Source: Circinella minor (Eukaryota; Mucoromycota; Mucoromycetes; Mucorales; Lichtheimiaceae). From it: DNA of 64,000 nt. The stretch is taken from positions 1 to 64,000 of the forward strand of contig JAEPRB010000155.1 in NCBI GenBank assembly GCA_016758965.1, given 5' to 3'. This document shows, piece after piece, positions 10,140-53,185 of this stretch (within the stretch, counting starts at the first letter, position 1; the number at the start of each line of letters is the position of its first letter). A program made the position numbers and the translations under genes. Below the pieces are notes generated by a model. That model was not told the origin of the DNA. It saw only the letters and a list, made by a program, of their open reading frames with translations, and ran no database searches.

Positions 10140-12979
10140 TTATCTATATTCATTTGGACCTGAAATTACAGCGTATCCTGTGGATACACTCCTAGAACCA
10201 TTGCTCTTATATAACAAGTCTCCTGGTTGTGGATGAGGATAGTAGTGATAACCCGTTGAACTAGTGGAAGTATTCTTATTATTAAGAAAAAGAGCAGTAT
10301 TGTGTTTTGTCGGTGGTGCTGTTGCGGGTAAAGGTATAGATGAAGATAATTGTAGAGGATCATACATAGAATGATTATAGTGATTATTATTATTATTATC
10401 ACTATTATTAATAATAGAGTGTGTGTTATTATTGATGTTGTTATGATCATGATGATCATTATTATTAACCATCTGAACAATACCAGCAACAAAAGGATCA
10501 TCAGAAGTTGTGGCTTCAGGTGGAGACGAAGTTGGGTCTTCCACTTCTCTTTCGAGACTAGCCGTATAAACCCGCATTTCTCGAGCATAGCGTGCCTTGT
10601 CTTCTTCGGCCATCTGTAACCACGGTATTCTGTCTTCATCCGTCATATCACGCCACTGAGAAGCGATCACTTTACTGATCGGTCCCACTGTAGACCCTGG
10701 GTATTGTCGTGCTACTTCGGGACGTACGGCAGCCAAAAAGAAAAGAAATCCAGACATCGGATGTTTGGGCGCTGTTGGGTGCCGATGCCGTTTCTTTTTA
10801 CGTCCTCGCGGGTCACGCGGTGCATCGTGTATACCCGACTTGCGACGCCGTTTATGTGGAACAAGGGTATGGTTTACTGTTGTATAATTTGTCGATGTTG
10901 TTACTCCTTCTATTTTTTCTGTTGTTGCTACTTCTGCTGCGGGCCAGCCCGCTGTTGTTGATGCGACCATAGTGCTTGATACAGATGTGGTTGCTGTACC
11001 AGAAGAGAACATATTATTATGAGTAATATTGTTATTGGTAGGATTATGAGAACCTTTCCTGGACCTTGAAAATTTCCTTGCTTCAGCCAATTGAGCTTTT
11101 GATCGTCGAGTATAAATAAAATCAGGATGATTTTTAAGATGGTCTTGTTTTATTAACGCTGCTTGCTGCATATAGTTTTGCCGGGATTCCTAATTACAAA
11201 AAAAAACATGTCAGTTTTTTATCTTCTTTTTCAAAAAAAGAAAATAGAAAGAATAATAATTACAGGATCAAGTCGTTTCCATCGTTCACCGATTTCTTTA
11301 CTAATTTCTGCAACCGTCATTTTAGGTGATTCTTCGAGTAATCGACGTCGTATATCTCGATTAAATAATAAATAAGCATTTGGTGGTCGTTTTAATCTTT
11401 CTTTGACTGGAGCTGGTTGTTGATGATGTTGTTGTTGTTGCAGATCATTAGTGTTATCCAAATAATGATTATTATTGAACATATTTGTAACATTAGTAGT
11501 ATTAGTATCATCCAAAGATGAAATAATAAGACTATCTTCTCGATTGCCCATAGAAGATGAAATAGTAGCAGAAGATGAAGGTGAAGGTGAATCTTCTAAT
11601 AAATCATAATGGTAGGGTTGATCAGGGCTAAAAGTGGGAGGTGGAGATATACTATTGCTGGCACTACTATTACGCCGATCTTCTTCCTTCATGGATAAAA
11701 TGGAAGGATAAGCAGAAAATGGATGATGTTCAGCATTACTACCCAAAAGCTCTTCTTTTTCTTCTCGTTCAGCTTCACGGATAGCATCTGGTGATACTAA
11801 GTGCTCCATTGCTGTTCGTTTTCCTGCGGCTGTTATAATTTTGTCAGGTATAAAACGTTTGTCTTTGTTTTTATTGTATTCGTCTTCGTCTTCTTCGTCT
11901 TCTTCTTCTGAAAGTTTGGAATTTATAATGATAGCTCGTTGATGATATTTCTTTTTATGAGACTATATATATAATAGAAAAGGTTAAAAGGGAGGAAAAG
12001 CGGGAAAGGTAGCGATTAAAAAAAATGGTATACGTATATAAATGGAAATTACTAAATGAAGCAAATAAAAAGGAAGATTTTTCTTTTTTTGGCTATCAAA
12101 AACATATTCGAGATAATACTTACTTGTGAAAGTTCATTCCATTGTTGATCTAGCGACACATCATTATCATTCTCACGATGATCTGCACAAAACAGGAGGT
12201 AAGCATCAGTATGCTCCCTATTGATCATTGTTACTGATGTCGTCGCCGATGGTATTGATGTTGATGTAACTGTGCTTAACGGCGTAGCAGTTATAGTGCT
12301 GTTCACTGAAGTAATAATAGGAGTAGACGTTGTGGAAGACGAAATAATAGCACCATTATTAGATGTAGAAGAAGAAGAAGAGTTAGAAATCATTACTGCT
12401 TGTGAAGAATATGGTTTTAATGCGTTATTACCATTCCCATAACCCGTGTAAGTCATTGTATGAGATGATTGGCTGGCCGATGCAACGTCTGTGCTCGATA
12501 CTTGAATAGGCGGCAGATGGCATGGGCCCGCACGTGAAGTAGACCTTATTTCGGAATCCTGATCGAGCTCCGTAGTTTTCCCGGAGACTGGAGTAATAAT
12601 AGTTGTGGCTTTATGATGTGCAAAATTACCATTATTATGTTGCTGTTGAGTTGTTGGCGTGGTTTGTTCTGTCGTATATAAATATGGATCTCCTCGAGAA
12701 AGGAGCTATATATATACAAGTATAATTGGCATAATTATATGCAAGTATATTGCATAATAATAATACAATAGCGAAAAAAAAAGATTTGTGTTTTCTTTAA
12801 TATTATTATTATTACTGATTGATTAAAAAATGTAAAAAAAAATAATTAAAGAAATAGCTAACCAATGCGTCATGATCCATTGCTGTTGTTGTTGTCATGG
12901 TCGTGATAGGATAATGTGATGTTGAAAAAGAACCGCGTAACTCTGACAATGAATGATATTGCTTATTGTTGTGCGTCAT
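10140..12979 (-). CDS. Multi-HMG-box DNA-binding protein
   Basis: Exons 12979-12863, 12705-12124, 11962-11264 and 11189-10140 join in phase 0 at every junction to 815 residues. Two clear HMG boxes are visible. Box 2 (about 424-495; RPPNAYLLFNRDIRR, then IGERWKRLDP across the intron) is of the sequence-specific MATA/SOX-like type. Box 3 (about 603-680; HPMSGFLFFLAAVRPEVARQ, then WRDMTDEDRIPWLQMAEEDK) is nearer the HMGB type. A degenerate box 1 may span 202-243 (TDAYLLF, then QQWNELSQ and KKKYHQRA), again split by an intron. A basic KKKR-rich patch before box 3 is a likely nuclear signal. The rest is Ser/Thr/Asn-rich, with acidic and Gln stretches. Probably a transcriptional regulator; orthology to a named factor is not established and no TPT/RNA helicase sex-locus neighbour is seen, so it should not be taken as a mating-type gene. 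Confidence 0.85.
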
Positions 12980-26500: not shown

Positions 26501-29500
26501 TTTTGGGCATCAAGGGTAAACCAAATTCAACACCTTCTAGAGAACGAATGAATCGTGCTTGTTTCGATAAAGTTTCCGAATTAGTTCAAAATGGCCATCA
26601 GGTGATGGTCTTTGTTCATGCACGTAAAGAAACTGTCAAGACTGCACAAGCATTGCGTGAAGAAGTGGCAGCTGAAGGAATATCAGGTAAAAAAAAATCA
26701 TTTTGGTTTTCTCTTTCCAAAAATTGTTGTATAATTGTTGTATACCCATCAAAATAACCTAACTTAATATCATGATTAGAATATTTCGATTGTTCACTTG
26801 AGAGCAAGTTTTCGAACTATAAGAGAGAAGTTGCTAAATCACGGAACAGGGAATTGAAAGAATTATTTAATTTTGGTTTTGGTATGCATCATGCTGGTAT
26901 GCTTCGTTCCGATCGTACATTGACTGAACGCATGTTTGCTGATGGTGTACTTAAGGTAAAAAAAATTAATAGTGATTGATTGATTGATTAATTATTATTT
27001 ATATTATCAATGATATAAACGGTTGGTAATACTTTGGTGTTAACAAAAAGGTAACATTTACAATATATAGGTCCTTTGTTGTACTGCTACTCTTGCCTGG
27101 GGTGTCAATTTGCCAGCTTATGCTGTTGTTATTAAAGGCACTCAAGTTTACGATTCGCAAAAGGGTAGTTTTGTGGATTTATCAATTCTCGATGTTTTGC
27201 AGATCTTTGGTCGTGCTGGTCGTCCACAGTATGAATCCCAAGGTGTAGGTTATATCTTGACTACTCATGATCGACTTGGACATTATATCTCGGCTATTAC
27301 TCAGCAGCATCCCATTGAATCAAAGTAAGCTTTATTTCTTTCTTTCAAAATCCAAGCTTCTCCCATCGTTCTCAGTTATATAGGAATAACCGTATATTAA
27401 CATTAATAATTTATTTTACAAAGGTTTATCGAACATATTGCAGATAACTTAAATGCTGAAATTTCACTTGGCACTGTAACGAATGTTGATGAAGCCGTCA
27501 CTTGGTTGAGTTATACCTATCTCTATGTACGTATGAAGAAGAATCCTATGGTTTATGGTATGGATCATTCTGAACCTGTTGAAGATCCTTTACTTGGTCG
27601 CAAGCGTCATGATATTATTGTTTTGGCAGCACGGAGACTTGCCAAATGCCAAATGATTATTTTTGATGAAAACACAGGCTACTTGACTTCCAAGGATCTC
27701 GGTCGTATTGCATCCAATTTTTATATTCGACATACCAGTATTGAAATTTTTAATGACTTTATGAAACCACGTATGACTGAAGCTGATGCATTATCTATGA
27801 TGAGTTTAAGTTCAGAATTTGACAATATCAAGTCTCGAGATACTGAACACAAGGAATTAAAGGGACTTTTGGATAATGCGTGCGCATGTGATATCAGGGT
27901 AAAAAAAAGAATGAGGCTACTTATTTTATTCAAAGATATATACAAATTAGTGCACTAATCATTTGAACATTATAAATTAATATACATATATATTAGGGCG
28001 GTACCGATTCAACTCATGGCAAAGTTAATATTCTTTTACAAACGTATATTTCCAATGCACGCATTGATGATTTTGCCCTGGTTTCCGATTGTGCTTATGT
28101 TGCACAAAATGCAGGTCGTATTGCTCGTGCATTATTTGAAATTGCATTGAATCGAAATTGGGGTCCCACGGCTCATGTTCTATTGTCTATCAATAAGGCC
28201 ATCGAAAAACGTATGTGGACATTCCAACATCCACTCCATCAAATGGGATTACCACCAGATATTCTTGGCAAACTTGAAGCACGCACGCATGAAGTTTCCA
28301 TTGAAGAAATGCGTGATATGGAACCGGCAGAACTTGGTGAGCTTGTTCATCACAAACGTATGGGACCTACCTTAACACGTTGTGTGGATCAATTCCCTAT
28401 GTTACTATTGGATGCTCGTATTGCACCTATTACACGCAATGTTTTAAATGTTGAGTTGACTATTACTCCTGATTTTGTTTGGAATCCACGTGTTCATGGA
28501 TCTGTTGAACCGTGGTGGATTTGGGCCGAGGATTCAGAAAATGTTGAAATTTATTATTCAGAATACTTCCTGTTACATAGAAAAATGCTTGGGGAACCTA
28601 CCAAGATCATGTTTACTGTTCCTCTGGTTGAGCCTTTACCTTCTCAAATTTATATTCGGGCCGTATCAGATCGTTGGTTGGGTGCCGAGACTATCCTACC
28701 TGTATCGTTCCAACATTTGATTTTACCACAGTTGACGCCGCCACATACGGATTTACTTGACCTCCAACCCCTTCCTATTTCTGCACTTCAAGATGAGGTC
28801 CTTGAAGGAATTTGTGCCAAACGCTTCACGCATTTCAATCCAGTACAGACTCAAATCTTCCATACTTTATATAACACTGATCATAATTCTCTTGTTGGTG
28901 CGCCTACTGGTTCTGGTAAAACAGTTGCGGCCGAGTTAGCAATGTGGTATGTTTATAAACAGATAGGGTAAAACGAGTGTATAAAAAAAGTCGTTGGTTA
29001 CTAATATATTTAAATGATCTATTTTTATATATATTTTAGGTGGGCCTTCCGTCAACATCCTGGATCCAAAGTTGTTTATATTGCACCTATGAAGGCACTT
29101 GTTAAGGAGCGTGTTGCTGATTGGAACAAACGATTGACAGGTCCCATGAAGAAGAAACTGGTGGAATTGACGGGTGATGTTACACCAGACTTAAAGACCA
29201 TTGAAGCTGCTGATATTATTATTACTACCCCTGAAAAATGGGACGGTATTAGTCGTAGTTGGAAGACACGTAGTTATGTACGACAAGTTTCGTGTGTGAT
29301 AATTGACGAAATCCATTTGCTGGGTAGTGACCGTGGACCTATTCTAGAAGTTATTGTATCACGTATGAACTATATTGGATCACAGCTGGAGCGTAAAGTA
29401 CGTATCGTGGGTCTTTCGACTGCGTTGGCCAATGCACACGATTTGGCAGATTGGCTCGGCATTGATAAAGTTGGTCTATTTAACTTCCGACATTCTGTTC

Positions 29501-31678
29501 GTCCTGTACCGCTCGAAATTTATATTGATGGGTTCGCTGGCAAGCATTATTGTCCACGCATGATGACTATGAATAAACCTACTTATGCTGCTATCAAGAC
29601 ACATTCACCGACACAGCCTGTTATTGTTTTTGTTTCGTCGCGTCGACAAACCCATCTTACCGCCCAAGACTTGGTCGCTTATTGTGGTATGGAAGACAAT
29701 CCTCGTCAATGGTTACGTATAGAAGAACATGAACTTGAGGATTTATTGGATCGAGTTCATGATGAATCACTAAAAAATGCACTTGCTTTTGGTATTGGTC
29801 TCCATCATGCCGGTTTAACCGAAGATGATCGTCGTATTGTTGAAGAACTTTACTTGACATTTAAGATTCAAATTCTGATTGCAACAAGTACACTTGCATG
29901 GGGTGTCAATTTACCAGCTCATTTGGTTGTTATCAAGGGTACTGAATATTTCAACTACAAGATCGACCGTTATGCCGACTACCCGATTACTGATGTATTA
30001 CAAATGATGGGTCGTGCGGGTCGTCCACAATTCGATAATACTGGTATTGCTCGTGTTTTTGTCAAGGATAGTAAAAAGAACTTTTTCAAGAAATTTTTAC
30101 ACGAGCCATTCCCGGTTGAATCTAGTTTACATAAGTTTATGGATGACCATATTAATGCTGAAATTGTTGCGGGTACTATCAAAACCAAACAAGATGCAAT
30201 GGATTATTTGACATGGACGTACTTTTATCGACGACTTCAACAGAACCCCACATATTATGGATTGGATGATATGACACAACGGGGCGTGGATACGTTCTTG
30301 TCTGATACAATTAATGCAGTAACCAATCGTTTGGCCGAGTCTAATTGTGTTGAAATTGAAGAAGATTTTGAATTGATTCCATTGATCGCTGGTCGTATTG
30401 CATCATATTATTATCTTCGTCACGATTCTGTTCGACATTATAGACAAAAATTGACCAAGGATACTGAAATTGATGAGATCCTAGATATCATGAGTAATAC
30501 ACCTGAATATGGAGAGCTACCCGTGCGATGTAACGAGAATTTGTTGAACACTGAGATCGAGAAATATATTCCATACATGGTTAAGGGTGCTCGTGAAATG
30601 CATACTCCACAGACCAAGGCATATGTGTTAACTCAAGCACATATTTGTCGATTAGAATTACCTATTTCGGATTATATTACAGATCAAACGACTGTTTTGG
30701 ACTCTACCATTCGTTTCTGTCAAGTAAATATAGAATCAATCATTTTTAATATAATTAACATATTATGTTCTTATTGTTTATTCATTATTGTTCTTATTAT
30801 TGTGTATATAGGCTATGATTGATGTTGCTGCTGACGCCGGTTATTTGACTACTTCTTTGAAAATTATGAACTTGTTACAATGTATTAAACAAGCACGTTG
30901 GCCGGAAGAATCGACTTTGTTAACATTACCAAAAATTAAACCCAGTATGCTCAAAGATATTCGATTCAAGGTAATAAAATGGCAGTTTTGTTTGTTGACT
31001 TGTGATTCTTGAAAAATTAACGCCTTTTCTTTTTGTTATATAGAACAAAACATTGAACTGTTTAGCCCAACTTACTCAGTTTTCAGAAAAACAAATTAGA
31101 GATATCTTTAGTAGGGTATCTGGACTTTCCTCAGAAAATGTCAATGAGGTAAATATCATAGCAAAACAGTTGAGAATTTTATAGAAGCCTTTTTACTGAC
31201 ACATAATCTTTTTTTTTATAAAAAAAATATGATACAGATCCAGCGTGTTGTTTCACGCCTACCAATAATGGATGTGAAAACCACAATTCAATCTAAAAAA
31301 CCATATTTGATTCCGGAAACATCCTATAAGATTCAAATTCAACTTCAACGTGTTGGTTTATCTGGTAATAACGGTAAAAAGAAAACACCAACTCATGATG
31401 GACGTGTCTATGGTAAATTTCCCAAACCACAATATGAATCATGGTGGTTAGTAATGGGAGATGCCGATACGGATGATCTTTTGGCTCTTAAACGTATCAG
31501 TATGCGAAATGGACCAAACGAAACATTAACCAACAAGGCCACAACTCATATTACATTTGATACCCCTGTACGACTTGGAAAGCATCGCTATACATTGTAT
31601 CTTATTAGTGATGGATATTTGGGACTTGACCAACAAATTGATATTGACTTTGAAACAAGAGTGGATTTAGATTCATAG
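23577..31678 (+). CDS. slh1: Slh1/ASCC3 ribosome-splitting Ski2-like helicase
   Basis: Twenty-one exons (first 23577-23802, longest 29040-30723, last 31238-31678) give about 2077 residues, between yeast Slh1 and human ASCC3 in size. Two complete helicase cassettes follow the Brr2/Slh1 plan. Cassette 1 has Walker A APTGAGKT (about 406-413), DEVH (528-531), SATLPN and a GRAGRP motif VI. Cassette 2 has APTGSGKT (about 1267-1274), DEIH (1371-1374) and STALAN. Each is followed by a winged-helix/Sec63 unit ([20 protein letters not shown] in the first). [13 protein letters not shown] in cassette 2 and the N-terminal NWLLQQCYDYI favour Slh1/ASCC3 over Brr2. Slh1 is the motor of the RQT complex that pulls mRNA to split collided ribosomes ubiquitinated by Hel2, upstream of Rqc2. 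Both ATPase sites look intact. The kinship with Brr2 is the main alternative. Confidence 0.95.
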
Positions 31679-46427: not shown

Positions 46428-48689
46428 ATGACAGTACATTATTCAATAGCCATACAACGTTCACTACAACGATTGGATTACTATTATCAAGCAATCAATG
46501 CAACTATTTTGAGTAAACAAAATGCTGTGAGTGGGCTTATTCCAGCATCAGTCGCAATTACGGTATGTACTAAATTATATAAGAGAGAAAGAGAGGTTAG
46601 ATAATATTACACAAAAAAGAATGGTATGAATTATATTTACATAGTGTTGTGTTGTATGATCATATAGACACATGGGGATTATACCGATGCTTGGGTTCGG
46701 TAAGTACCAAGAAACAAATGATTACTTGAAAAGAGTTTTTATCATTTCAAAAAAATAAATAAATATGAGCTCATAAATATATATGTATATATAGAGACAA
46801 TGTATATTCTATCTATGCAGTTTATGGATTGGCTTTAGCCTATCGAAGAGTTGATAATGATAATGGAAGAGCATGTAAATATTTTTTTTTTATTTAATTT
46901 CCTTTTTCATCCAAAACGATGGGGGAGAAAAATACTAACCTTAAAAAAAGTTGAACTTGAACATGCGGTGATCAAATTAATGCGAGGATTGCTGTTTGCT
47001 ATGATGCGTCAAGCTGATAAAGTTGAACAATTTAAAAAGACACAAGTATTAGAACATTCTTTACATGCAAAATATAATACAGCCAATGGTGAAACGGTGG
47101 TTGGAGATTTTGATTGGGGTCATTTGCAAGTAAATATATATACTTTTACGATGTTGCTATGATGATAGGAAAGAAGGATAGGAAAAGGAAATGCTAAAAA
47201 ATAAAATAAAATGATGAAATGGTGATCTATTATAGATTGACGCAACAAGTTTTTTTTTGGTGGCATTGGCGGACATGACATCAAGTGGATTCACAATTGT
47301 ATATACGCAAGATGAAGTGGATTTTGTGCAAAACTTGGTATTCTATATTGAACGTATGTTTTTTTTTTCTGATACTCTTCCCAGTCATTTTATATCACAA
47401 GTATTAATACGAATCAATTTATTAACTGTTATAGGAGCTTATCGTACACCGGATTATGGTATATGGGAGCGTGGGAACAAGTCTAACCATGGTCAACCCG
47501 AGTTGAACTCTTCTTCAATTGGTATGGCATTGGCTGCATTACGCGCTATAAATGGTGTAAATTTATTTGGTGCACGGGGTGGACCAACTACTGTAAGTGT
47601 ATCAATATAAACAAGTATGATTATCATGTGGCTTTTGAAATTATTTTTTTTATCACTTACATACATGCATAAAAAAAAATTGTATATAATAGGTTATTCA
47701 TGTGTTGCCTGATGAATTAACGCGTAATGCGACCACTTTACACAGTTTCTTACCGCGTGAATCTAACTCCAAAGAAATTGATGGATCTGTCCTATCTGTT
47801 ATCGGTTTTCCTGCATTTGCTGTCAATGATCCAGAATTAATCCGTCGCTCCAAACAAGAAGCCAAAGAAAAGTTAGAAGGAAAGTATGGATGGAAACGAT
47901 TTTTACGTGATGGTCATCAAACTGTATTGGAAGACACTTCTAGATTACATTACAATTTAAACGAACTCAAGATTTTTGAAAACATTGAATCGGAATGGCC
48001 ACTTTTTTTTACCTATTTGGTATTGGAAGGCTTATTTACGGATAATATGGAACAAGCAGAAGAGTATAGCAAAAAATTAGAACCATTGATTATTAACTCA
48101 ACACATGTGCATCAATTACCCGTATCTCCTGGGGGTGGTACTGTTTCTCCTGCTTCTGGATCATCTTCTAAATATTCTTTTCTTTCCAGTAATGGAGCAG
48201 ATCCAGATTTAAGTATTCCATTAGTAGCCGAATTGTATTATGTTCCTCCAGAATATATTGATGCTGAAAAGGCTAATCCACATACACAACCACGTAGTCC
48301 CAATGATAATTTACCTTTGGTTTGGGCATTGTCGTTGTACTTTTTGGGCCGACTTATTCAGGAAGATTTGTTGTCGCCATCAGAGGTAGATCCATTGGGT
48401 CGTCGATTTGCTGCTAAACGGGTACCAAGACAACATATTGTTCAAATTGTTTTACTATCAGAAGATGAGACATTAAAAAACACTTTATCCATGTATGGTT
48501 TGGAAACACAAACGATGAGTGAAATTGCATCAAACATTACAGTATTGCATCCTCGTGCATTAGCAGAAGTTTATGCAGGATTGGGAAGAAATTCGAAATT
48601 GGGTTTAAGTGGTCGTCCAAAGCGGTAAGAATGATAATTTTTTTTTCTTAAGAGTATGTATAATGAGATACATGGATGAATATATTATT

Positions 48690-48720
<31 letters not shown>

Positions 48721-51700
48721 GGTTCTAGGCCAGTTGGGGTTTTAGGGACATCGCGTCTATATCGTATCCAAGGTCAAATTTATGCATTCACGCCTCACTT
48801 TATGGATAATGAAGAATTTTATCTCAATTCGGATCCTGATTATTTGGTTTCTGCGTTTGAAAGTGAATTAAGTTTTACAAGTCAAAATTGGTTTTATCCA
48901 GGTCGACCCACCATGGTAGTTTCACTTACCAATGCATTATTAGGGGCTGCTATGGTCCAACAAGGAAAACGTCAACATCATCATAATGGAGGCGATAGAT
49001 CAACAAACGCTACTATTTCTGATCGTTCATCTCAAAAGAATCTACTTAGTTTCTTTATGAATTTACGTTGTGGTGAAAGCAACCATGGGACTCGTGTACG
49101 CTTATGCCATTTGACAGAATCCGTCAATACCAGTAATATTGAATCCCTTGACTTTTTAATCAATCAACCCGATATGAATTGGGAAAGTATTTTGCTATTT
49201 GCAAACAAAAGAGCGCGTAACCGACGTCGATCCATTCATCGAAAATTGGGATACGACGAAGGTGAAACACAAGCTAATACACCTGGTAACAAGACACCAA
49301 GAAGACGCAATACAGCATTTCATGGAAAATCATTGGCATCTCCATTGGATCGATTAAACCAAGAAAGTTATTTTGAACAATTGTCGACTGCATTATCGAA
49401 TTTGAAACCATCGGATGCCTATGAAGATGACGAACCTCAATTTAAACTCAAGGAGCCGGAACAACATAATAGTAGTCCTTCTGCAAGAAAAACACTTGCA
49501 GCGAATCATGTGGATGTTGGATCAACAATAGAAGAAAGTAGCGGGTCACCACTCCAAGGGGAGGATTCTCTCACCTCTGATAGACCATCAAGTGAATCTC
49601 CGGCTGATATGCTTGCTTTAATGTTAGGGGATCCATCTCAATTTAACCAAGCAGTTGATAGTTTACTTGCATCTGTTAATCTTTATGATCAAATTGGTAA
49701 GTGTAGCAGCATATGCCTTTTTTTTTTAAGTGGGTTATGGTAAGTTTAGTTAGTAGATTTATTCATATGAATAAAAAAAAAAGAAGAAGCTAAATAACTC
49801 CCCCCCCTCTTATTTGTTTTTTATATTGATATTTACTAGATTTGTTACAATATCTTGCATCTTGTCAACCCAATGAATTCTATATTAATCAGTTACAAGC
49901 AACAATTAAAGAATTACTTGAAGAGGTTTATCTGAAATCTATGCGTTTGCAATACTGGTCAATTGCACGTCAAGCAGCTGGACTATTACATAAAATTGTT
50001 CCTTCACTTACAATCAATATTACTGACTTGGTTATTCGACAAAAACAAGTCAGTATTGGATCTGGCCCACAAGAGTATCTTATGTCAATGCCTACTGCAC
50101 CTGACGCATTAAGCAAAATGATTGCTGAACACTGGTAATTTTTACAAAAAAATATTATAAGCATATACATTTGCTCACATAGAAAAGGGAACCAGATTTT
50201 TTTTTTTAACGATAGCAATATATAAATATATAACTTAGTAATGATGATGTACGTGAAGGACCCGTAGTTCAAGAAATTATTATTTATCTTGGTGGGTTGA
50301 TTCGAACTGAACCACACATATTTGATGGTATTTTACGATTACGTACGCATTATATCATTATTGCATTACGTGAAGAAATCAGTCGTACTAATGGAGTAGA
50401 TGAAGAAGAAGCTGTTGAGCATTTAATGCAACTTTCGCCTTTTGAAATGAAAACATTGTTGGCTACCATCTTGTCAGGTCCTCGATTATGTGATAATGGT
50501 ATTGTGGTACGTGATAAACCGGGTGGTTTCTTAATGTTATCCCTTCCATTATCCAAAAAGGAAAAGCAATTACAATATGAGCAACAACAACAACAACAAC
50601 AAAAACAAAGTGAAGAAACAATAGCGTCAGTAGCAACAACAATGGTTGTGGAAAATAATAATCAATTGGTGATTTGTGCTCAATCCGCAGGATATAATTG
50701 GGGAAATTTTGCACGAGTGGATATCAATGGGCATACATTACATGGTAATTCGCGTGGACTTCATGTTTGGGCCATTGATCGTAGTACCCAATTATTGTTG
50801 GAGCGTGGATCATTTGATACCCATATTTCTACCGAAGAAAGCGTGGAATTCAAACGTTTTATTGATTGGCTCTCACCTGGTACGATCGTCGTTGTAGCCG
50901 CCAAAGATGATTGTACAGAACACTTGGGTAAAGAAGGTTATGAGGCCATGGAAAGTCTAGGCAGTACTAAGATTCGTCAAGTTGGATACCGTGATTCATA
51001 TGTATTTATTGGTGAAAAACGACATTTAACAAATCATGAAGGATCATCCATTACAAGCTCACCCATTATTGAACAACATAATTCTAAAGGCCCCACTGAA
51101 CTTATTGAAAGAATTATTACAACGAGTAACACTACAGAAAGAACAACATCCACTAACAGTAATAACAAGTTTAACATTAAATATAGCAACAATAACAACA
51201 ACAGCAGCAATGGTGTCATAGATACTTGTCATTTTCCACATTCTAACGGACGCTGGTTACGTCGTCGCAAGAATGACGGTGCATTGAATCGTGTTTCACC
51301 CCAATTCTTCCCTAATACATGGAAAGTTTTAGATAGCTCTCAAGGACTACGTATTCGAAATCATACTTTACCAAGAGACCCAACTGTATTGGAAAAAACA
51401 GCTGAAGAATTCAATTTTGCATTGGCTGTGGAAATCTTTTTGGGATGGTTAACCGATCCTGCTGAACGTCAAATTGCCGTGGAAACTTTAACAGTCATTT
51501 ATCAACTCAAGGAAAGAAATCCTGAAATGCAACTCAGTACTTATATTGATATTGTACAAATTATGGATACAGCTGTAGAATTTTTTTGGACGAAATGGAG
51601 CAAGGATAATATTACTGGATCAAGTTATAAAGAAAACAAGTGGTTGGCGCATAAATTGTTTTATGATTTACCAAAACAAGGTTCGGATGATAGTACTTTT

Positions 51701-51754
51701 GGATATTTAACAAAAAGTGCTCTCAAAGTACTTCCATTTGATTTCAACTATTAA
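46428..51754 (+). CDS. Phosphorylase kinase alpha/beta-like protein with inserted ILEI/FAM3 domain
   Basis: Ten exons (46428-46562, 46668-46699, 46795-46874, 46951-47129, 47236-47353, 47435-47592, 47693-48624, 48729-49696, 49840-50134, 50239-51754) give 1470 residues. The N-terminal GH15-like region follows PHKA closely: [67 protein letters not shown]. After a variable Ser/Asn-rich part, the conserved C-terminal helical region resumes ([29 protein letters not shown]) and finishes with [20 protein letters not shown] and [10 protein letters not shown]. Between these last blocks, about residues 1107-1228 form an ILEI/FAM3 domain. The C-terminus (PFDFNY) lacks the CaaX box of animal alpha/beta subunits. 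In animals these subunits hold the kinase gamma subunit inactive until Ca2+ or phosphorylation acts, controlling glycogen breakdown. The catalytic subunit is not in this window. Confidence 0.93.
48692..48720 (+). repeat. 29-T polypyrimidine run before a splice acceptor
   Basis: An uninterrupted T run sits immediately before the acceptor GGTTCTAG of intron 7 of the phosphorylase kinase gene. It probably acts as the polypyrimidine tract. Exact length may be unreliable in assembly. Confidence 0.6.
50660..51025 (+). other. ILEI/FAM3 (GG-type) domain inside the phosphorylase kinase protein
   Basis: This in-frame segment of exon 10 encodes a domain like that of FAM3C/ILEI and POMGNT1: [20 protein letters not shown] (RG-x-N-V, then a strand turn), a helix ([11 protein letters not shown]), [17 protein letters not shown], then a helix with ESLGSTKI and the closing [13 protein letters not shown]. 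Compare FAM3C motifs GTIVLMGTYDDGATKL, LGSTSI and GFRDNWVF. The surrounding frame is open without introns, so it is part of the same polypeptide. In animals ILEI-type domains occur in secreted or Golgi proteins and can bind glycans; here it would be cytosolic unless the protein is targeted in an unrecognised way. Confidence 0.85.
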
Positions 51755-51923: not shown

Positions 51924-53185
51924 TTATAAAATTTTTTGAAGTCGTTCTTGAGCACTTGGGCCTTCATTCCATTGATTATTATCTTTAAGTGTAGGTAGAC
52001 CTACTTGTTCAACTATATAACTAGCTGAAACAGCACCATACCGTGCTGCCATCACTGCATCACCATTGGAAGCAACCCAACCAATACATAGCCCACCACA
52101 AAATGCATTACCAGCACCTGTCACATCTCGAATTTTATCACTATCATGTTCTTTCCAATAAGCAGGAACCCACTCTGTTGTATTATTATGTGTAGTAACC
52201 ACTGCCCCTAATTTTCCTGATCGAATCACAATATTGGTATTACTGTCTATCGCATTATATAGCTTTTTTGCACATGTTTCTGGATCCAATTTTGGGTTGC
52301 CTAACAAAGCGGCTGCTTCTTCATGATTCGGTGTCAAAATATCTACTAATTTGGCCGCTTCACAGACCATTTCATAGCACTATAGAAAAAGGTATATATA
52401 TTCAACCAACTTATTTGTTAGTTTTTTTTTTTGTTTTTTTTTTTTGAATCGAATTGAAATTTTTTTTTTATACCTCTGCTAAACATGACCATGGGACAGG
52501 TTCCCATATAAAGGCAGTGGATGTTCCACCCCGTTCTCTCCACTCTGTAACAATTTCAATGGCACGTTCAGGTGAACAAATAAGGTGCATTACACGAAGA
52601 GATTTAATCCAACTATCCGGTGGATCTTGGGCTGTAAGTCGGATAATAGGATGAATATATTCGAAATCACTATTAAAAAAGCCATGAGTTTTCTACTTTT
52701 CTTAGTTTTATAAATGAAGGGGGGGGGTGGTTGAAGAGTAGATAGGATATTTGTACCGGTGATCATTTGGACCAAACGTATTTAAACCGCGTGTTGTATG
52801 CAAGTTAGCATGTTGTTGTCTTCTTAAAGTAATGTCAAGTCTTTCTAATTGTTTCACAATGTCTAATGGGTGATCAAATCCTTCTTGTGCAATATAACCA
52901 ATCTTTTTTGATTCCGGTGAATTAATCCAAATGCGCATACCTTAGAAAACAGAAACAAGAGGTTTATAATAATGGTTACTTCCATTGGTTTATTTGTCAG
53001 CATTTTATTTTATTTTATTTTATTTTAAAAAAAAGAAGGGGGAAGTTATAAAACAAACCATAGATGGCATAAATGCCTGCACCACCAAGAATATTGGTTT
53101 CTTTTGTGCCATCTTCATAGACAATGTCGTCAATGATAAGACTACCTAAAGAACCATAAATAGGACTTATCAATGTATCCGTCAT
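51924..53185 (-). CDS. Mak32-like PfkB-family carbohydrate kinase homologue
   Basis: Exons 53185-53059, 52940-52757, 52669-52474 and 52379-51924 encode 320 residues. The start (GSLGSLIIDDIVYEDG, then ILGGAGIYAIYG) has the PfkB N-terminal Gly-Gly signature. TPNHEEAAALLG and DVTGAGNAFCGG (253-264) are the C-terminal features. The residue aligned with the catalytic Asp of the GAGD motif is Asn260, as I recall for Mak32 and its fungal relatives, so sugar-kinase activity is doubtful. Mak32 in yeast is needed for M1 killer double-stranded RNA stability; its biochemical role is unclear. Convergent with the phosphorylase kinase gene, 169 bp apart. Confidence 0.88.

Follow-up and report, generated by a model that had tools for sequence, protein, structure and literature searches.

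An ILEI domain with a putative sugar site inserted in a phosphorylase kinase α/β-type protein of early-diverging fungi

Most of what is known about the ILEI domain comes from animal proteins that are secreted, reside in the Golgi or sit at the cell surface, among them FAM3A, FAM3B and FAM3C (ILEI, PANDER), small secreted proteins that carry the domain alone. A carbohydrate-binding module within a cytosolic kinase regulatory subunit is familiar from the glycogen-binding module of AMPK β, but its likeness to the protein described here is one of idea only: this CBM48 module differs from ILEI in fold and family, and no kinship is claimed. The GG domain of CEMIP/HYBID and TMEM2 (PDB 8c6i) serves extracellular hyaluronan metabolism in proteins without parts resembling phosphorylase kinase (PhK). 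According to the available part of PMC9802357, FAM3C is released from cells, and the glycosyltransferase POMGnT1 has a transmembrane domain at its N-terminus and a stem that contacts β-linked GlcNAc through Arg129, Asp179 and Arg207. Whereas POMGnT1 is thus membrane-anchored, the fungal ILEI domain lies inside a predicted cytosolic PhK-type protein; and whereas the FAM3 proteins are secreted and single-domain, the fungal protein has no signal peptide-like start, two PhK domains and a length of 1470 residues.

For PhK itself, the accessible text of PMC10978961 describes human α and β as farnesylated at a C-terminal CaaX motif, and places the autoinhibitory part of the γ kinase in the grip of the C-terminal D5 domain of α. 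Ser1018 of PHKA1 is given as a regulatory phosphorylation site in cattle in the portion of PMC5834288 at hand. We analysed a 64,000-nucleotide stretch of a Circinella minor contig (JAEPRB010000155.1), hereafter the window, from an assembly of 46.6 Mb in 619 contigs. It contains a PhK α/β-type gene with the following features.

46428..51754, + strand: PhK α/β-type gene from ATG to stop, 10 exons, 1470 amino acids, spliced by hand at GT-AG sites
46428-46562, 46668-46699, 46795-46874, 46951-47129, 47236-47353, + strand: exons 1-5
47435-47592, 47693-48624, 48729-49696, 49840-50134, 50239-51754, + strand: exons 6-10
46428..50134, + strand: GH15 glucoamylase-like region (PF00723) and helical parts, exons 1-9
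50246..50476, + strand: helical PhK segment on the N-side of the insertion, aligned by phmmer against the PDB with human α 887-966 and β 842-916
50480..50656, + strand: N-side linker of the ILEI domain with a poly-Q stretch, mostly of low confidence in the predicted model
50660..51130, + strand: complete ILEI (GG/FAM3-type) fold, residues ~143-299 of the exon 10 open reading frame (ORF), spliced residues ~1107-1263
50753..50755, + strand: Arg equivalent to POMGnT1 Arg129, spliced residue 1138, Arg in 158/158 complete rows
50906..50908, + strand: Asp equivalent to POMGnT1 Asp179, spliced residue 1189, Asp in 158/158
50990..50992, + strand: Arg equivalent to POMGnT1 Arg207, spliced residue 1217, Arg in 158/158
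51131..51235, + strand: C-side linker, rich in Ser, Thr and Asn, low confidence (pLDDT <50 at ORF residues 300-334)
51242..51751, + strand: PhK C-terminal domain (KPBB_C), aligned with human β 920-1085 and with a chain numbered 1051-1221 that we read as α

Across 99% of its length, the spliced product shows 100% identity to INT45_010373 of Circinella minor (Mucoromycota). In the database protein identical to the window product (P0001), PF00723 covers residues 7-994 (E 1.1e-79) and PF19292 (KPBB_C) matches with E 2.6e-30; when the window was searched in pieces, the GH15-like match fell in exon 7 and the KPBB_C match in exon 10. A preliminary description of this DNA had noticed a single uninterrupted exon encoding PHKA-type helices, an ILEI domain and the PHKA C-terminal block, and exon 10 is indeed one stop-free frame in which helical PhK sequence, ILEI and the PhK C-terminal domain follow each other. 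Within its 506-residue ORF, residues 174-262 match PF15711 (ILEI) with E 6.5e-24 and 84.7 bits, where the curated threshold is 27, and KPBB_C matches with E 1.2e-30, which upholds the embedding of an ILEI domain between PhK parts that had been claimed. The location proposed earlier (50660..51025) was right, but the domain is longer, extending over about 50660-51130. A predicted model gives it the β-β-α FAM3-type fold and superimposes it on the POMGnT1 stem at 1.6 Å over 140 residues, in line with the FAM3-like fold that structure prediction had been expected to return. In the same model, helices occupy the PhK segment between ORF residues 8 and 81, and the N-side linker has pLDDT <50 at residues 83-108 and 120-141, with a helix predicted at 108-121.

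We considered an artefact of the gene model or a fusion of adjacent genes and dismissed both: the domain order recurs in relatives from other fungal genera, and no stop interrupts the exon. Elsewhere in the window, the exon of a PfkB-family sugar kinase (51927-52379, - strand, PF00294, E 8.3e-18) lies directly downstream of the PhK-type gene in convergent orientation. Two nearby HMG-box stretches (10143-11962, - strand, PF00505, E 1.5e-18 and 1.7e-12) are perhaps one two-box gene, and the Sec63/DEAD helicase exons with an SNRNP200-type winged helix at 27997-30819 (+ strand) presumably encode the splicing helicase Brr2.

Apart from the insertion, the protein resembles the animal regulatory subunits throughout. 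Like PHKA and PHKB, it has a GH15-like N-terminal domain, here with a Glu pair of the α type, and a KPBB_C C-terminus, and its close relative P0002 aligns with human α (E 2.6e-224) and β (E 4.8e-185) in four ordered, collinear stretches each. In alignments with PDB chains, the ILEI domain is inserted between residues 966 and 1050 of human α and exactly between residues 916 and 917 of β; neither human subunit gave an ILEI match. In animal PhK (PDB 8jfk) this slot is filled in α by a loop bearing Ser1018, which falls in the 966-1050 gap, and by nothing in β, whereas the fungal protein has the ILEI domain there. In our reading, D5 starts right after the insertion. Animals have separate α and β subunits, whereas the Circinella genome yields a single KPBB_C match (a lower bound) and a single ILEI match, both at this gene. 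The human subunits are farnesylated at CaaX, but a Cys at position -4 occurs in only 2/122 fungal relatives, and the window protein ends in FDFNY, which contains no such motif. Among 14 control genomes PF19292 was detected in one, that of Synechococcus elongatus; PhK α/β-like proteins therefore probably exist in cyanobacteria as well.

The fungal domain shares with the POMGnT1 stem, known from PDB entries 5ggj, 5ggl and 5ggn, not only the fold but also the three sugar-contact residues. We placed these by counting along chain A of 5ggj, and the spacings of 50 and 28 fit Arg, Asp and Arg. In the alignment of 158 complete domains, just 6 of the 118 columns never vary, and the trio accounts for three of the six. 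The chance that three named columns fall among the 6 invariant ones of the 89 aligned with POMGnT1 is 1.8e-4, or about 0.01 if counted on the 19 positions common to the window domain, POMGnT1 and TMEM2, 5 of which are invariant. Redundancy among the 158 rows was reduced only by clustering at 90%, and many of them come from Mortierella; at <70% identity, 49 representatives retain 7 invariant columns, and the triad is strictly invariant even among 10 representatives that are <50% identical to each other. Six rows of fragments or gapped models, belonging to P0137, P0085, P0156 and P0163, are omitted from this set and agree in the triad where they cover it. Basidiobolus proteins were added later and stand outside the 158 rows; in one of them, P0176, the triad is present as judged by eye.

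Mutations in an animal domain fit this picture. Mouse TMEM2 loses its activity upon mutation R265C, D273N or D286N (available part of PMC10276149). By spacing, R265 and D286 correspond to an invariant Arg of the triad and to the invariant Asp of an FDTH motif, and D273 maps to an Asp kept in 149/158 rows. In the resin-binding results given in the accessible text of PMC9802357, the POMGnT1 stem, FAM3C, FAM3A and worm Fam3L2 bind sugars, but Fam3L1, in which the equivalents of Asp179 and Arg207 are not conserved, does not. That text names GlcNAc, mannose and further sugars on resin as ligands; α-glucan is not among them. The preliminary description had suggested that the protein may bind a glycan through ILEI. 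The invariance of all three POMGnT1 contact positions across the complete domains analysed makes this likelier, and we see good, if indirect, evidence in the alignments that the fungal domain has a working sugar site.

On this basis, we propose that the protein is a PhK α/β-type regulator in which the inserted ILEI domain is a sugar-binding module through which a cytosolic glycan, glycogen being the likeliest, tethers or gates it, and we put the probability of this model at about 0.5. Binding of a sugar in the cytosol would be the best-supported function of the domain itself. The module would hang on flexible linkers in the slot of the regulatory phosphorylation loop of α, adjoining the C-terminal domain that holds the kinase subunit in animals. 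Owing to this position, occupancy by sugar would alter how the C-terminal domain is presented to a partner, and control by sugar would replace, or add to, control by phosphorylation. Glycogen is our preferred ligand, given that the protein is otherwise glucan-related; the main alternative ligand would be O-GlcNAc, since the POMGnT1 domain binds β-GlcNAc.

The same position also suits a module that binds proteins or dimerizes, with Arg-Asp-Arg as structural residues or as a contact for a peptide, given that the insertion adjoins the domain to which the kinase binds in animals. FAM3C has been crystallized as a dimer (5lc4) as well as a monomer (5lc2/5lc3), judging from the titles of the PDB entries, and the POMGnT1 stem binds fukutin (PMC8478517, in the part available). 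Invariance of the triad can indeed reflect folding. However, Fam3L1 lacks two of the three residues and still has a Fam3-like domain, albeit one without sugar binding (PMC9802357, same part), and the triad is therefore probably not required for the fold alone. Together with the sugar binding of the POMGnT1 stem, Fam3L2, FAM3A and FAM3C, this makes a protein-interaction module a possibility to be kept in mind but an unlikely one.

The architecture proved not to be peculiar to this gene but widespread across early-diverging fungi. In precomputed annotation, PF00723, PF15711 and PF19292 occur together in all of the best 120 of 2055 matches, own protein included, which answers positively the check for co-occurrence of PhK α/β and ILEI in fungi that had been advised. 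A search with the exon gave 53 matches, all of them listed, and across the full-length and exon-level searches ILEI was recovered in 162/173 proteins. The 11 without it are a fragment (P0162) and an animal-type set (P0164-P0173) comprising one oyster protein, five PhK α proteins and four others. A search for shorter ILEI-bearing proteins returned 11 matches, 10 of which also contain PF19292, two Basidiobolus ILEI-PhK proteins being among the matches; the other (P0177, 494 amino acids) has three ILEI stretches by PF15711 and no PhK domain found. By taxonomy look-up of one member each, the combination occurs in Mucoromycota, Chytridiomycota, Zoopagomycota, Kickxellomycota, Basidiobolomycota, Blastocladiomycota and Calcarisporiellomycota; the Mortierella relatives would, we assume, add an eighth phylum. 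No member from Dikarya or from outside the fungi appears among the named matches listed (the best 120 of 2055, and the 11 of the shorter-protein search).

A tree built from 53 selected rows sorts the ILEI-bearing proteins roughly by phylum and sets them off from five animal-type rows of P0164-P0173, which cluster together. A horizontal import special to Circinella minor was rejected in view of the seven phyla and this branching. Because ILEI rows group roughly by phylum across seven phyla, the architecture is, as far as the tree can tell, old within fungi. Four metagenome rows (P0141, P0153, P0150 and P0154) lie outside the named fungal groups, P0141 on a long branch whose position is unsure; they may come from unsampled basal fungi or from other protists, and leave room for an older origin.

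The fungal ILEI-PhK protein is predicted to be cytosolic. A strongly hydrophobic N-terminal 12-mer was present in only 2/119 Met-starting relatives by a crude hydropathy test; as 24/122 relatives contain one 19-residue stretch above hydropathy 1.8, mostly just above, this location is predicted rather than proven. The genome encodes a glycogen synthase, found by profile search on contig C33, a debranching enzyme (C146) and other GH15 genes on five contigs. Glycogen phosphorylase was not detected in the 46.6 Mb assembly by PF00343, a profile that finds its target in 12/14 control genomes, nor by a 174-residue mammalian fragment or a PLP-site pattern, both used without a positive control. This absence, from one assembly in 619 contigs, may reflect an assembly gap or a true loss and is weak evidence. 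Searched with rabbit PHKG1, the assembly gave as its top match a kinase of 35% identity that resembles SGK/S6K/AKT on reverse search, and a 43% match to the C-lobe resembles CaMKI; a clear PhK-γ orthologue was not found in this assembly, with 2 of 114 matches searched back and some short ones reaching 53% identity, and here too a gap in the assembly may be the cause. Since neither the phosphorylase nor a clear γ kinase was found, regulation of glycogen phosphorylase by the protein is doubtful. The classical PhK role is in doubt, and it would be unsafe to name the fungal protein a phosphorylase kinase subunit by function.

A further model dispenses with the PhK role altogether. Here, the fungal protein would be an ancient stand-alone cytosolic glycan sensor made of a glucoamylase-like domain and an ILEI lectin; the PhK α/β scaffold would have arisen from it in animals once the lectin was lost, a phosphorylation loop took its place and the γ kinase was recruited. 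We regard this history as rather improbable; if true, sugar binding of the FAM3 type would be an old intracellular function that reaches beyond the secretory one of animals.

The ILEI domain might instead recognize β-GlcNAc on cytosolic proteins and so link nutrient-dependent O-GlcNAc to the regulator. The genome encodes an O-GlcNAc-transferase-type gene (C3:167123-168556, PF13844, E 6.9e-56 and 3.8e-52, open frame of 1610 amino acids), and O-GlcNAc could therefore exist in the same compartment as the domain; the binding of β-linked GlcNAc by the POMGnT1 stem points the same way. Yet FAM3 domains bind several sugars (available part of PMC9802357) and the triad thus does not fix specificity. 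A reader of O-GlcNAc seems to us improbable.

The GH15-like domain could itself be active, in a stand-alone cytosolic glucan hydrolase. In 122 aligned full-length proteins, the first catalytic Glu is kept in 119/119 with a residue there and the second, placed by the alignment with human α, in 122/122, as is an Arg-Asp pair (114/114 and 111/111) that we take to be the active-site pair of glucoamylases. ILEI would then be the carbohydrate-binding module of the enzyme, comparable to the starch-binding module that secreted glucoamylases have. The finding of glycogen synthase and debranching enzyme but of neither glycogen phosphorylase nor a clear PhK-γ is consistent with such a hydrolase, except that the two absences come from one assembly of 619 contigs and weigh little. 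Against it, human α has the same intact Glu pair, and PhK is nevertheless without activity on maltose, isomaltose and glycogen (PMC10978961, part available). A hydrolase is accordingly a distinctly improbable reading. That ILEI is a passive relic, an inherited insertion without specific function, as its low-confidence, low-complexity linkers might suggest, is very improbable in the face of its presence in seven fungal phyla and of sugar-contact positions that stay strictly invariant among representatives <50% identical.

The PhK α/β family is known and the domain combination is visible in public annotation. The preliminary description knew of no account of this architecture, and we likewise found none in the titles and beginnings of abstracts examined from the open-licence literature on PhK, on ILEI/GG/FAM3 domains and on fungi; within that scope, we met no account of either the lectin-type insertion or its invariant sugar site. 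A fungal PhK scaffold with a lectin-type domain makes direct sensing of glycans by PhK testable on one small soluble domain. If our model of a regulator with a sugar-binding module applies, sugar binding of the ILEI/FAM3 type would also extend to the cytosol and beyond animals, a point relevant to the origins of the FAM3 proteins.
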